A stretch of 64,000 nt of DNA, taken from contig JAHBTX010000003.1 in NCBI GenBank assembly GCA_019638395.1, forward strand, positions 558,001-622,000, read 5' to 3'. The position numbers and the translations under genes were made by a program. Shown in pieces: positions 12,266 through 15,334 of this stretch. The notes beneath the pieces were generated by a model that did not search any database, was not told the DNA's origin, and saw only the letters and a list, made by a program, of their open reading frames with translations. This DNA comes from Cyclobacteriaceae bacterium. Its GTDB lineage: Bacteria; Bacteroidota; Bacteroidia; Cytophagales; Cyclobacteriaceae. Every line of letters starts with the position of its first letter. The stretch's first letter is position 1.

Positions 12266-12318
12266 GTTACCAAATCATTGTCAACAGTCAATTGCCCTTT
12301 GTCAACTATCTTGCGCCC

Positions 12319-14892
12319 ATGTACCCTGTACTCGAAATTGTTCCTGAACTCAAAGCACAATTCATTCAGCAGAAGATTTTGATTCTGCAAGCACCACCCG
12401 GTGCGGGAAAAAGCACGGTATTGCCTTTGCAATTGATGAATGAGAATTGGTTGCAGAAGAAAATAATCATGCTCGAACCCAGGCGACTGGCAGCACGATC
12501 GGTAGCCATGCGCATGGCGCAGTTGTTGGATGAAGAAGTAGGAGAGACCGTAGGCTATCGGGTGCGCTTCGAAAATAAAGTGAGTGCAAAAACCCGCATC
12601 GAAGTTGTTACCGAAGGTATTCTTACGCGCATGGTTCAAACGGATAGTACGCTGGAAGATGTTGGTCTTGTAATTTTTGATGAATTTCACGAACGCAGTC
12701 TGCAGGCTGATCTGGCATTGGCTTTATGTTTACAGGTACAATCGCTGTTGCGCGATGATCTAAAGTTGCTCATCATGTCGGCTACATTGGATGGTGAAAA
12801 GATTTCAGGTGTGTTGAACAACGCACCCATTCTTACCAGTCTTGGCCGGCAGTATCCCATCACATATCGGTACATAAATCCCGATAAGGATTTACGGCTT
12901 ACACAAAATGTAGCGCGGGTAATCCGCAAAGCGTTAAAGGATGAAACGGGCGATGTGTTAGTGTTTCTACCTGGTGCTGGCGAGATACAACACGTGCAAA
13001 ATTTATTGGAGTCGGAAAATATTTCGGGAGTTGTTCCCTTGTATGGCGATCTGCCCTTCAAAAAACAACAAGAAGCAATACTGCCGCATCCACAAGGTTT
13101 GAGAAAAATTGTATTGGCTACTTCGTTAGCTGAAACATCACTTACCATTGAAGGTATTACCACAGTAATTGATAGCGGCTATGCACGCGTGCCCAAATTC
13201 GATCCACGCAGTGGCTTAACGCGATTGGAAACGGTGCGCGTTACACGCGATGCTGCCTATCAACGGGCCGGTCGTGCAGCCCGGTTAGGTCCTGGTGTTT
13301 GTTACCGCTTGTGGCCCGAGGCAATACATAACATGTTGCAACCGAATCGCCAACCTGAAATACTCGAAGCTGATTTAGCTTCGCTCGTGTTGGAGTTAGC
13401 CAACTGGGGTGTGAATGATTTAAATGAACTTACGTGGATTACGCCTCCACCACCAGGTGCAATCAGTCAGGCGCGGGAGTTATTACACGATCTTGAAGCA
13501 TTAGAAGAAAACAAAATCACTGCGCGTGGTAAAGAAATGCTGAAACTTCCTACTCATCCACGCATTGCACACATGTTGTTGTTAGGCTTAGACTCAAAAG
13601 CCCAACCCAATTCAGCGCGTCATACCGGACTTGTTCCGGTATCACCGCGTGTACCTTCTGCGTTGGGATCAAGGCACGAGGCTGCGATGACAGATGGGCT
13701 TTTGAGTCTTTCCACTGACCTCGCCTCCCTGCTCGAAGAACGCGATCCACTACCTAAAGAAGCGGGTGCCGATTTAAGTTTGCGTGTAGAAGTATTACGT
13801 AAGTGGCGAGCAGGAGAGCGTGTAAATGCTGATCGCAATGTGTTGGAGCGCATCGAGCGCATTGCTGCCAACTGGCGTAAAATTTTTAAGTTGAATGTAG
13901 ATAATACTATTCCGCCAGATAGCGAAGTAGGGCGATTGATTGCCGAAGCCTACCCGGAACGCATTGCGCAACAACAAACCAAACAAAGCGAACGCTATAA
14001 ATTGGCCAATGGTCGTGTTGTAAAATTACCGGAGCATGATGCGTTGGCACGCGAACCGTGGTTGGCTGTTGCACACCTGGATGCTGGTATGAACGAAGGA
14101 AAAATTTTTCTGGCAGCTTCGTTAGATGAAACTGATCTGCAACACCGGGCTACTGAAACTGAAACGGTTAAGTGGGACGCAACTCGCGGCATGGTAGTGG
14201 CGCAATTGGAAAAGAAAATTGGGAACACCATATTATCATCTAAACCGATGCAACAAATATCAGAACCGAAACGTGTGGCTGTGTTGTTGAATGCGTTGCG
14301 AGAAGAAGGATTTAAATTAATTGGATGGGACGAAGCGCACACCGAGTGGCAAAACCGAATCCTGAGTTTGCGTGTATGGCGTAAAGATGAAGCGTGGCCC
14401 AATGTAACAACCGAAAATCTTTTGGCTACAGCCAATGTGTGGCTTACACCTTACCTTAACAACATTACTAAGCGAAGTGAATTGCAAAAACTGGATTTAC
14501 AAAATATACTTATTGGTTTATTGCCGTGGGACTTACAACCGAAAGCAGAGAAGCTAGCTCCGGTACGATTGCTTGTGCCCAGCGGTTCGCAGATAAAACT
14601 TACTTACTATAACCATGGTGCTGCACCGGTAATGGAAGTGCGCCTGCAGGAAATGTTTGGTCTGCTCGAAACCCCAACCATTAACGAAGGCCGCACAAAA
14701 ATTTTATTGCATTTGCTCTCGCCCGGTTATAAACCCGTGCAGGTTACGCAAGACTTAAAAAGTTTTTGGCAAACTACCTACCACGAAGTGCGCAAAGAGT
14801 TGCGCATGCGTTATCCGCGCCACCATTGGCCTGATGATCCGTGGACGGCCGAGGCAGTGCGGGGGGTGAAGAAGAGGACACCTCATCCCTAA
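12319..14892 (+). CDS. hrpB: ATP-dependent helicase HrpB (DEAH/DExH family) carrying an in-frame inserted element
   Basis: DExH-box RNA-helicase-like ATPase, 857 aa. Motif I is APPGAGKST with K31-S32; motif II is D121-E-F-H124, the usual HrpB form; motif III is SAT; motif VI is YQRAGRAARLGPG. The helicase-associated and HrpB C-terminal domains follow, with YPRHHWPDDPW near the end. The ATG at 12319 is preferred to the TTG at 12292. About 40 residues (425-464, HTGLVPV...SALGSRHEAAMT) are an inserted palindromic element that leaves the frame intact, explaining the length above the usual ~820. The last residues (RTPHP) come from a REP-like palindrome. Cellular role of HrpB is not well defined. 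Confidence 0.93.
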   Translation: MYPVLEIVPELKAQFIQQKILILQAPPGAGKSTVLPLQLMNENWLQKKIIMLEPRRLAARSVAMRMAQLLDEEVGETVGYRVRFENKVSAKTRIEVVTEGILTRMVQTDSTLEDVGLVIFDEFHERSLQADLALALCLQVQSLLRDDLKLLIMSATLDGEKISGVLNNAPILTSLGRQYPITYRYINPDKDLRLTQNVARVIRKALKDETGDVLVFLPGAGEIQHVQNLLESENISGVVPLYGDLPFKKQQEAILPHPQGLRKIVLATSLAETSLTIEGITTVIDSGYARVPKFDPRSGLTRLETVRVTRDAAYQRAGRAARLGPGVCYRLWPEAIHNMLQPNRQPEILEADLASLVLELANWGVNDLNELTWITPPPPGAISQARELLHDLEALEENKITARGKEMLKLPTHPRIAHMLLLGLDSKAQPNSARHTGLVPVSPRVPSALGSRHEAAMTDGLLSLSTDLASLLEERDPLPKEAGADLSLRVEVLRKWRAGERVNADRNVLERIERIAANWRKIFKLNVDNTIPPDSEVGRLIAEAYPERIAQQQTKQSERYKLANGRVVKLPEHDALAREPWLAVAHLDAGMNEGKIFLAASLDETDLQHRATETETVKWDATRGMVVAQLEKKIGNTILSSKPMQQISEPKRVAVLLNALREEGFKLIGWDEAHTEWQNRILSLRVWRKDEAWPNVTTENLLATANVWLTPYLNNITKRSELQKLDLQNILIGLLPWDLQPKAEKLAPVRLLVPSGSQIKLTYYNHGAAPVMEVRLQEMFGLLETPTINEGRTKILLHLLSPGYKPVQVTQDLKSFWQTTYHEVRKELRMRYPRHHWPDDPWTAEAVRGVKKRTPHP
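13590..13709 (+). repeat. 120-base palindromic element inserted in frame in hrpB
   Basis: Bounded by a perfect 15-base inverted repeat: AGACTCAAAAGCCCA (13590-13604) and TGGGCTTTTGAGTCT (13695-13709). Inside is an 8-base-stem hairpin ATACCGGA/TCCGGTAT (13622-13629, 13635-13642) with loop CTTGT, and a GTCAT/ATGAC pair (13619-13623, 13687-13691). The total is exactly 120 bases, so the helicase frame is kept. The core resembles the widespread intergenic string that reads 'GTCATACCGGACTTGTTCCGGTAT'-like, here used as coding sequence. It encodes no transposase and would be mobilised in trans, if at all. Confidence 0.8.
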
Positions 14893-14966
14893 CCCTTCTC
14901 CTCAAGGAGAAGGGAACATTCTAAGATTTAAGTGGAGTTGCTTTCCCCTCTCCCAAAGGAGAGGGG
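14893..14966. repeat. Two REP-like palindromes between convergent hrpB and DUF559 gene
   Basis: First hairpin CCCTTCTCCT-CA-AGGAGAAGGG (14893-14914) begins right after the hrpB stop. Second hairpin CCCCTCTCC-CAAA-GGAGAGGGG (14945-14966) lies inside the 3' end of the DUF559 gene, giving its tail the residues TPGPSPLGEG. Both belong to the familiar CTCACCCCTGGCCCCTCTCC-type dispersed repeat. Without T-runs they are weak intrinsic terminators, though they may block both convergent transcripts. Confidence 0.75.
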
Positions 14967-15334
14967 CCAGGGGTGAGGTGCTTTCTGATTTCTTCTAAAA
15001 CCATCTGCATGTTCTTCAGCACTTCTTCATTTCTAAACCGAATCACTTTTAAACCAAACTCTTCCAGTTGAAGAGTTCTGAGCTGATCATACTCAGGATT
15101 GTCATTTATGAAATGAATGGCACCATCTACCTCGACAACAAGTTTGGCCTCATGACAATAAAAATCAACGATATAGTGTGATATCGGATGCTGCCTTCTG
15201 AATTTAAAGTTATTGACCTTTCTGTTTCTCAGGTTCTGCCAAAGAAGATTTTCAGAAGGGGTCATTACTTTTTTTAAAGACCTTGCGTTTTCGAAAATTT
15301 TCCACGAAGCATTTTGATGAAAAGGTAAGTCCAT
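14921..15334 (-). CDS. DUF559 (Vsr-like fold) nuclease-family protein with repeat-derived C-terminus
   Basis: 137-residue protein of the DUF559/MTES_1575 family, which has a PD-(D/E)XK/very-short-patch-repair-like endonuclease fold. Conserved elements: T-P-S-E-N-L-L-W near residue 26, NFKFRRQHPI, the catalytic-type strand IVDFYCHEAKLVVEVDGAIH (Asp, then Glu-x-Asp-Gly) and L.VIRFRNEEVL near residue 100. The last ~17 residues, starting TPGPSPLGEG, are translated from a REP-like palindrome and are unlikely to be part of the fold. Convergent with hrpB. DUF559 genes are common and often mobile; a housekeeping function is not established. Confidence 0.85.
   Translation of the reverse strand: MDLPFHQNASWKIFENARSLKKVMTPSENLLWQNLRNRKVNNFKFRRQHPISHYIVDFYCHEAKLVVEVDGAIHFINDNPEYDQLRTLQLEEFGLKVIRFRNEEVLKNMQMVLEEIRKHLTPGPSPLGEGKATPLKS

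Follow-up and report, generated by a model that had tools for sequence, protein, structure and literature searches.

In Rickettsia and Wolbachia, palindromic elements (RPE and WPE, respectively) of about 100-150 bp with a long stem-loop are found both between genes and in frame within conserved genes, where they encode solvent-exposed inserts, according to two reports (PMC3767692, PMC2229807). In these, the groups RPE-4, RPE-6 and RPE-7 carry an ATGAC motif and different RPE groups are found at one site in orthologues (PMC3767692, PMC2229807), and the host genes include those of DNA polymerase III, UvrC, a helicase and tRNA synthetases (PMC3767692). A second described system is that of the CGTC-tagged REPs (Di Nocera et al. 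2013), each with a tag (CGTC, or else TGTC or CCTC), a stem of 8-9 bp (an 8-bp stem starting from AT), a loop of 4-5 nt (5 nt in the basic form) and a short tail that is mostly CCA; they occur as paired units of opposite orientation, some of them intragenic (PMC3733652). There, RPE-4 and RPE-6 are themselves CGTC REPs, REP dimers lie within longer palindromes in Halothiobacillus, two Xanthomonas species have REPs at about the same position of recB, and Bacteroidetes are listed among the CGTC phyla, with no intragenic Bacteroidetes case in the available text (PMC3733652).

The locus described here lies in a stretch of 64,000 nucleotides (the window) of a Cyclobacteriaceae genome, in a gene identified as hrpB by TIGR01970 (E 1.3e-297) and by the Pfam domains HrpB_C, DEAD and Helicase_C. 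Its features, and those of the adjacent region, are given in Table 1.

Table 1. Features at and beside hrpB, with positions in the window
Feature	Position	Strand	Details
hrpB, ATP-dependent helicase	12292..14892	+	ORF; 866 codons counted from TTG; coordinates include stop
Family-A element, full extent, in frame within hrpB	13585..13714	+	covariance model, E 4.4e-18
Left terminal arm of hrpB insert	13590..13604	+	15 bp
Right terminal arm of hrpB insert	13695..13709	+	perfect reverse complement of left arm
First CGTC-type REP in hrpB insert	13618..13645	+	tag CGTC, stem ATACCGGA/TCCGGTAT, loop CTTGT, tail CAC; definition from PMC3733652
Second REP in hrpB insert, opposite orientation	13665..13692	-	tag TGTC, loop CTCGT, tail CCC
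Family-B repeat region directly 3' of hrpB	14880..14990	.	perfect core 14946-14965; overlaps hrpB stop and 3' end of DUF559 gene
DUF559 gene beside hrpB	14921..15334	-	PF04480, E 2.3e-37; final codons are family-B sequence

The insert in hrpB and its dispersed family

The hrpB insert (571585-571714 on the contig, 130 bp) is a copy of a dispersed element, here called family A, of about 130 bp, in which two CGTC-tagged REP hairpins of opposite orientation (tag CGTC or TGTC, stem of 8 beginning AT, loop of 5) are enclosed by a longer inverted repeat with the consensus GAGGCTGTCTCAAAAGTCG. The perfect 15-base inverted repeats that the original prediction had placed at both ends are present, as are the hairpin with an 8-base stem (13622-13642, with a loop of 5 nt) and the GTCAT/ATGAC pair (13619-13623 and 13687-13691), and the insert is in frame within hrpB, with the frame open throughout. 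The tags of the two REPs occupy 13618-13621 and, on the minus strand, 13692-13689; the hairpin of the second REP (13668-13688) is mismatched at three of its eight pairs here and perfect in the other three species that carry the insert. A length of exactly 120 bases holds for the span of the arms (13590-13709) but not for the family model, which gives 130 bp, and the residues affected, numbered 425-464 in the original prediction, are 433-473 when counted from the TTG at 12292. A known RNA family was rejected as the identity of the insert after a search of Rfam with 13500-13800, which gave no match at E up to 5.

The core string to which the original prediction pointed, CCGGACTTGTTCCGG, is the hairpin of a CGTC-type REP. 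With one intergenic copy as the query, nine full or near-full copies (the query included) were found in this genome, along with the copy in hrpB and a single partial match. A lack of other copies in the genome would have refuted the original prediction, which this check, too, left standing. A covariance model, built from 21 copies of which the hrpB copy was itself one, detected at least 21 family-A copies in this genome (150 of 1007 candidates scored) and at least 61, 60, 76, 118 and 44 in five relatives, all of these being lower bounds with 150 of 848-1583 candidates scored per genome. A family-A match at E <= 0.001 is present in 18 of the 62 genomes of the genus. Family A is strongly under-represented within genes: of 106 distinct copies (a set that includes the hrpB copy of this genome and excludes those of G031, G012 and G023), four lie inside an open frame that continues for 30 codons in both directions, as do 1406 of 2000 randomly chosen positions of the window. 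Stretches fetched near unpaired terminal repeats, as places for a parent insertion sequence with the same terminal repeats, held incomplete copies, ends of contigs and gaps in the assembly (of the 20 stretches, 16 were centred on terminal repeats with no exact partner at element spacing, and three of the other four on short-spaced repeat pairs), and solo palindromes or mini-elements were dropped as a class, several of them containing NN assembly gaps. CGTC REPs are also characterised by the lack of a dedicated transposase gene. Of 14 genomes, 13 have genes with Y1_Tnp domains; only one of 20 fetched Y1_Tnp loci had a copy of family A nearby, which leaves Y1_Tnp unsupported as the mobiliser of family A. 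The sole such case is a Y1_Tnp gene of G031 (L358), with the family-A copy approximately 0.4 kb downstream.

A translated search for family A returned 36 rows in six of 12 genomes, and 30 loci were read. In seven genes (L293, L310, L295, L296, L303, L309 and L314; two in G067 and one each in G023, G012, G026, G031 and G068), the element lies in frame, downstream of a possible start codon and upstream of a hydrophobic core; judged by eye, these regions may be signal-peptide-like, and the true starts could be inside the element. Pfam matches of the seven hosts are PorP_SprF, OEP, FG-GAP and SnoaL, with two hosts lacking a match and one having a sub-threshold match to MG2. PorP_SprF is matched in 57 of 62 genomes, and among 30 loci read the insert is found in G068 alone, the 29 orthologues being without it; no clear target-site duplication was seen between filled and empty PorP sites. 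A family-A copy of the genome studied (L016, 2031-2158) also lies in what may be an N-terminal extension of a lipoprotein-like gene.

History, structure and constraint of the HrpB loop

The HrpB loop between the HPR and EERD motifs consists of 28-38 residues, commonly 31, in the relatives read that lack a repeat, and of 64 residues with a family-A element in four species (the one studied, G000, and G031, G012 and G023), in all of which the frame is free of stop codons, two codons of the G023 insert being ambiguous. The loop is therefore longer than in orthologues, as had been predicted, but by about 33-34 residues (64 versus 30-31), equivalent to about 99-102 nt, and not by about 40 residues or exactly 120 nt; the net gain being below the element length, the element appears to have taken the place of some of the host loop. 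The G031 loop is identical to that of the MAG UBA2786 (L114, L018). The same loop holds a second palindromic repeat, family B, of unrelated sequence, in six species, with a perfect core in G068, G017 and G029 and in degenerate form, judged by eye, in G072, G019 and G026. In G008, whose loop is shared with UWPOB_CYTO1, a loop of 30 residues has TTTGAGTCTTGC at the expected end of the right arm, and this short match may be the scar of a lost element. The extra residues are missing from HrpB of the other relatives read and from E. coli-type PDB chains, so that the comparison with distant HrpB proteins left the original prediction standing. These loop lengths derive from 136 loci, with rows numbered L137 or higher and showing <=48% identity listed only if the motif was absent, and 18 listed rows are without it; L090, L093, L161 and L191 were read as 66 since the end motif failed, and L090 was re-read as 29.

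A tree of HrpB was constructed from 54 rows with the loop excluded (rows below 58% identity were unused, 17 individually named duplicate or partial rows were excluded, and L120, L098 and L138 were removed). In it, G000, G031, G012, G023, G008, G068, G072 and G017 form one clade of eight species (100/99) that holds all four carriers, and G072, which has no family-A element in the loop, is the sister of the species studied (99/79). One gain, one scarred loss and several replacements are the likely history; a single gain with losses is unproven because support for branching within the clade is weak (83/19, 92/85 and 92/71), and two gains or a transfer are possible instead.

An AlphaFold model of HrpB (37 sequences, mean pLDDT 86.9, pTM 0.69) has only one internal segment with pLDDT <50, residues 436-467, flanked by predicted helices at 423-434 and 462-482. 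The model supports the insert being a disordered loop in the protein. The best PDB matches of HrpB are 6eud and 6heg, for which the first aligned stretch stops at residue 455 and the second restarts at 532; because the first ends inside the insert region, the PDB alignment alone does not place the insert, and it is the close relatives that do.

Comparison of the six pairs of carriers gave dN/dS values for the insert of 0.27, 0.16, 0.44, 0.36, 0.49 and 1.39, and of 0.05-0.16 for the rest of hrpB. Three of these pairs were tested for synonymous excess in the insert, which was found in two (p 0.003 for dN/dS 0.27 and p 0.0003 for 0.16), the youngest pair being without purifying selection there (dN/dS 1.39, p 0.73). 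The original prediction had the element either domesticated or tolerated: domestication is weakly suggested by what appears to be mild purifying selection on the peptide in two of three pairs tested, and tolerance as a loop fits the open frame in four species. In all six pairs, fourfold sites of the insert (13590-13709 and its orthologues in L018, L020 and L021) diverge less than those elsewhere in hrpB, which is predicted neither by neutral tolerance nor by protein constraint; possible reasons are a younger age, gene conversion and constraint at the nucleotide level.

The low fourfold divergence would suit an insert that is kept for a role of its hairpins in DNA or RNA, such as transcript stability or pausing in hrpB, with the peptide as a by-product. 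The strong RNA fold of 13580-13720 (-61.1 kcal/mol, where shuffled sequences average -38.8; z -5.8, with none of 200 shuffles as good) points the same way, as does the tendency of family-A arms to vary between copies yet remain complementary, with at least one double change in nine of 30 predicted pairs. However, most of the covariation falls in the outer arms, where it could stem from arm-to-arm copying, and its term is only -0.63 kcal/mol; moreover, the second hairpin in the species studied has been broken by three changes, all of them synonymous, that left the peptide unchanged. Such a role is, on balance, quite unlikely. That the 64-residue loop might be a native feature of this HrpB lineage, one that only resembles a repeat, agrees with its identical position and equal length in four species but is hardly credible for DNA that matches a dispersed family over its full length and is absent from sister species of the same clade. 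As for an artefact of assembly or binning, the named relatives are metagenome assemblies, the G023 insert contains ambiguous bases, and repeat copies of G031 are located at assembly gaps; the chance of it is nevertheless practically nil for a diverged sequence found in one place and in frame in four species, and here within a contig of 958 kb.

It is probable, rather, that a family-A element was inserted into hrpB in the ancestor of the clade, in frame, and has been translated and tolerated as a loop. A non-autonomous, mostly intergenic palindromic element of approximately 130 bp, a CGTC-REP pair within a longer inverted repeat, would have entered hrpB in the ancestor of a small clade of Cyclobacteriaceae, landing just 3' of the HPRIAHML segment in a variable loop between two helices. 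With the frame kept, it would have been translated, and the protein would accommodate the roughly 40 residues as a disordered loop at its surface. Four sampled species retain the element, a further one may bear a scar of its loss, and others in the clade have the unrelated palindromic repeat in its place. The family of copies, the open frame in four species, the absence from the other relatives read and the low-confidence loop of the model are observed; from these patterns we infer one origin, the order in which gain and loss took place, translation itself and tolerance without function, together with mobility conferred by some enzyme, perhaps via a hairpin intermediate.

Family B and the DUF559 domain

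The family-B core, CCCTCTCC-N-GGAGAGGG, is present 15 times in this genome and 90 times in seven relatives. Family B is also under-represented within genes, far less than family A: an open frame extending 60 codons in both directions surrounds 29 of 87 distinct cores examined, and 1182 of 2000 randomly chosen positions of the window. These 29 are not independent, since leuS of five species accounts for ten, uvrA for three, and gcvP and a carbamoyltransferase gene for two each; three others are in IcmF-like genes, and further hosts are a CusA-like RND gene, HsdM, the alpha-beta linker of E1, alaS, hrpB of G068, Ada, TraG and a histidine kinase. Compared with PDB chains, UvrA and HsdM have extra residues at the repeat, and those of E1 fall in a linker. 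As insertions, IcmF is doubtful, with only about 3 extra residues relative to PDB 4xc6, and the CusA-like RND protein is weak, with just about 4-5 relative to CusA; L419 was rejected as an in-frame case, its frame (64 and 99 codons) being probably spurious. The repeats in uvrA of three species (L224, L403 and L425) lie in roughly one shared loop. The stop codon of hrpB falls within family-B-like sequence (14880-14913).

The leuS genes of five species (L407, L424, L443, L447 and L448) contain an in-frame DUF559 domain with a family-B repeat on either side, the order of the extra segment being repeat, domain, repeat; residues 233 and 234 of PDB 2v0c are adjacent, and the query spans 340 to 487 between them. 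DUF559 is matched by Pfam in all five leuS proteins and in the gene beside hrpB (14921-15334 on the minus strand), the repeat-nuclease-repeat unit being in frame in leuS and present in part beside hrpB. Against a link between the two, no perfect family-B core was found in the fetched stretch beside hrpB in G072, or at the G006 locus. Among the loci examined, DUF559 was encountered only at leuS and near hrpB, which amounts to two loci and not a survey, and a search of one open library (titles and the start of abstracts) yielded no relevant paper that connects DUF559 to repeats, palindromes or tRNA synthetases. The DUF559 link is the boldest lead, drawn from two loci only; if true, it would provide a candidate mobilising enzyme for family B. 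An overall scheme in which two unrelated palindromic families continually supply this genus with in-frame peptide inserts, gained and lost in permissive loops and signal peptides, family B being mobilised by DUF559 nucleases as a repeat-nuclease-repeat unit of which single repeats are non-autonomous derivatives, is unlikely to hold in full.

Comparison with known repeat systems

In-frame palindromic repeats are best known in the obligate intracellular Rickettsia and Wolbachia, for which relaxed selection is an easy explanation. The presence of such repeats in hrpB, leuS, alaS, uvrA and gcvP of a Bacteroidota genus with genomes of 3-6 Mb suggests that genome decay is not needed, and the filled and empty orthologues allow tests of tolerance, loop choice and function in laboratory bacteria. 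The behaviour is already known from Rickettsia, with varied RPE groups at one site and the host genes named above; the hrpB case is not a wholly new behaviour because Rickettsia shows the same.

Both units of the hrpB insert have the tag of CGTC REPs, and the first also has the stem and loop; the second has the layout, with broken pairs in this species alone among the carriers, and the tails are CAC and CCC where those of CGTC REPs are mostly CCA. The enterobacterial MITE-like elements ERIC/RU-1 and RU-2 (127 and 168 bp) are likewise mostly intergenic and in some cases in frame, but family A precedes a hydrophobic core in seven genes, one of which has 29 orthologues without the element. The Rickettsia elements offer a further likeness: with 130 bp and perfect arms of 15 bp, the hrpB insert fits their range of 100-150 bp with a long terminal inverted repeat, and family A combines intergenic copies with in-frame copies in conserved genes. 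It differs from them in that the host belongs to the Bacteroidota, outside the Rickettsiales, that the REP pair sits inside a longer inverted repeat, and that an unrelated second family competes for the same HrpB loop. The analogy with RPE that was drawn at the outset holds in size, structure, the mix of intergenic and in-frame copies, placement in a loop and the occurrence of different repeats at one site, and this resemblance supports the view that the insert works like an RPE.
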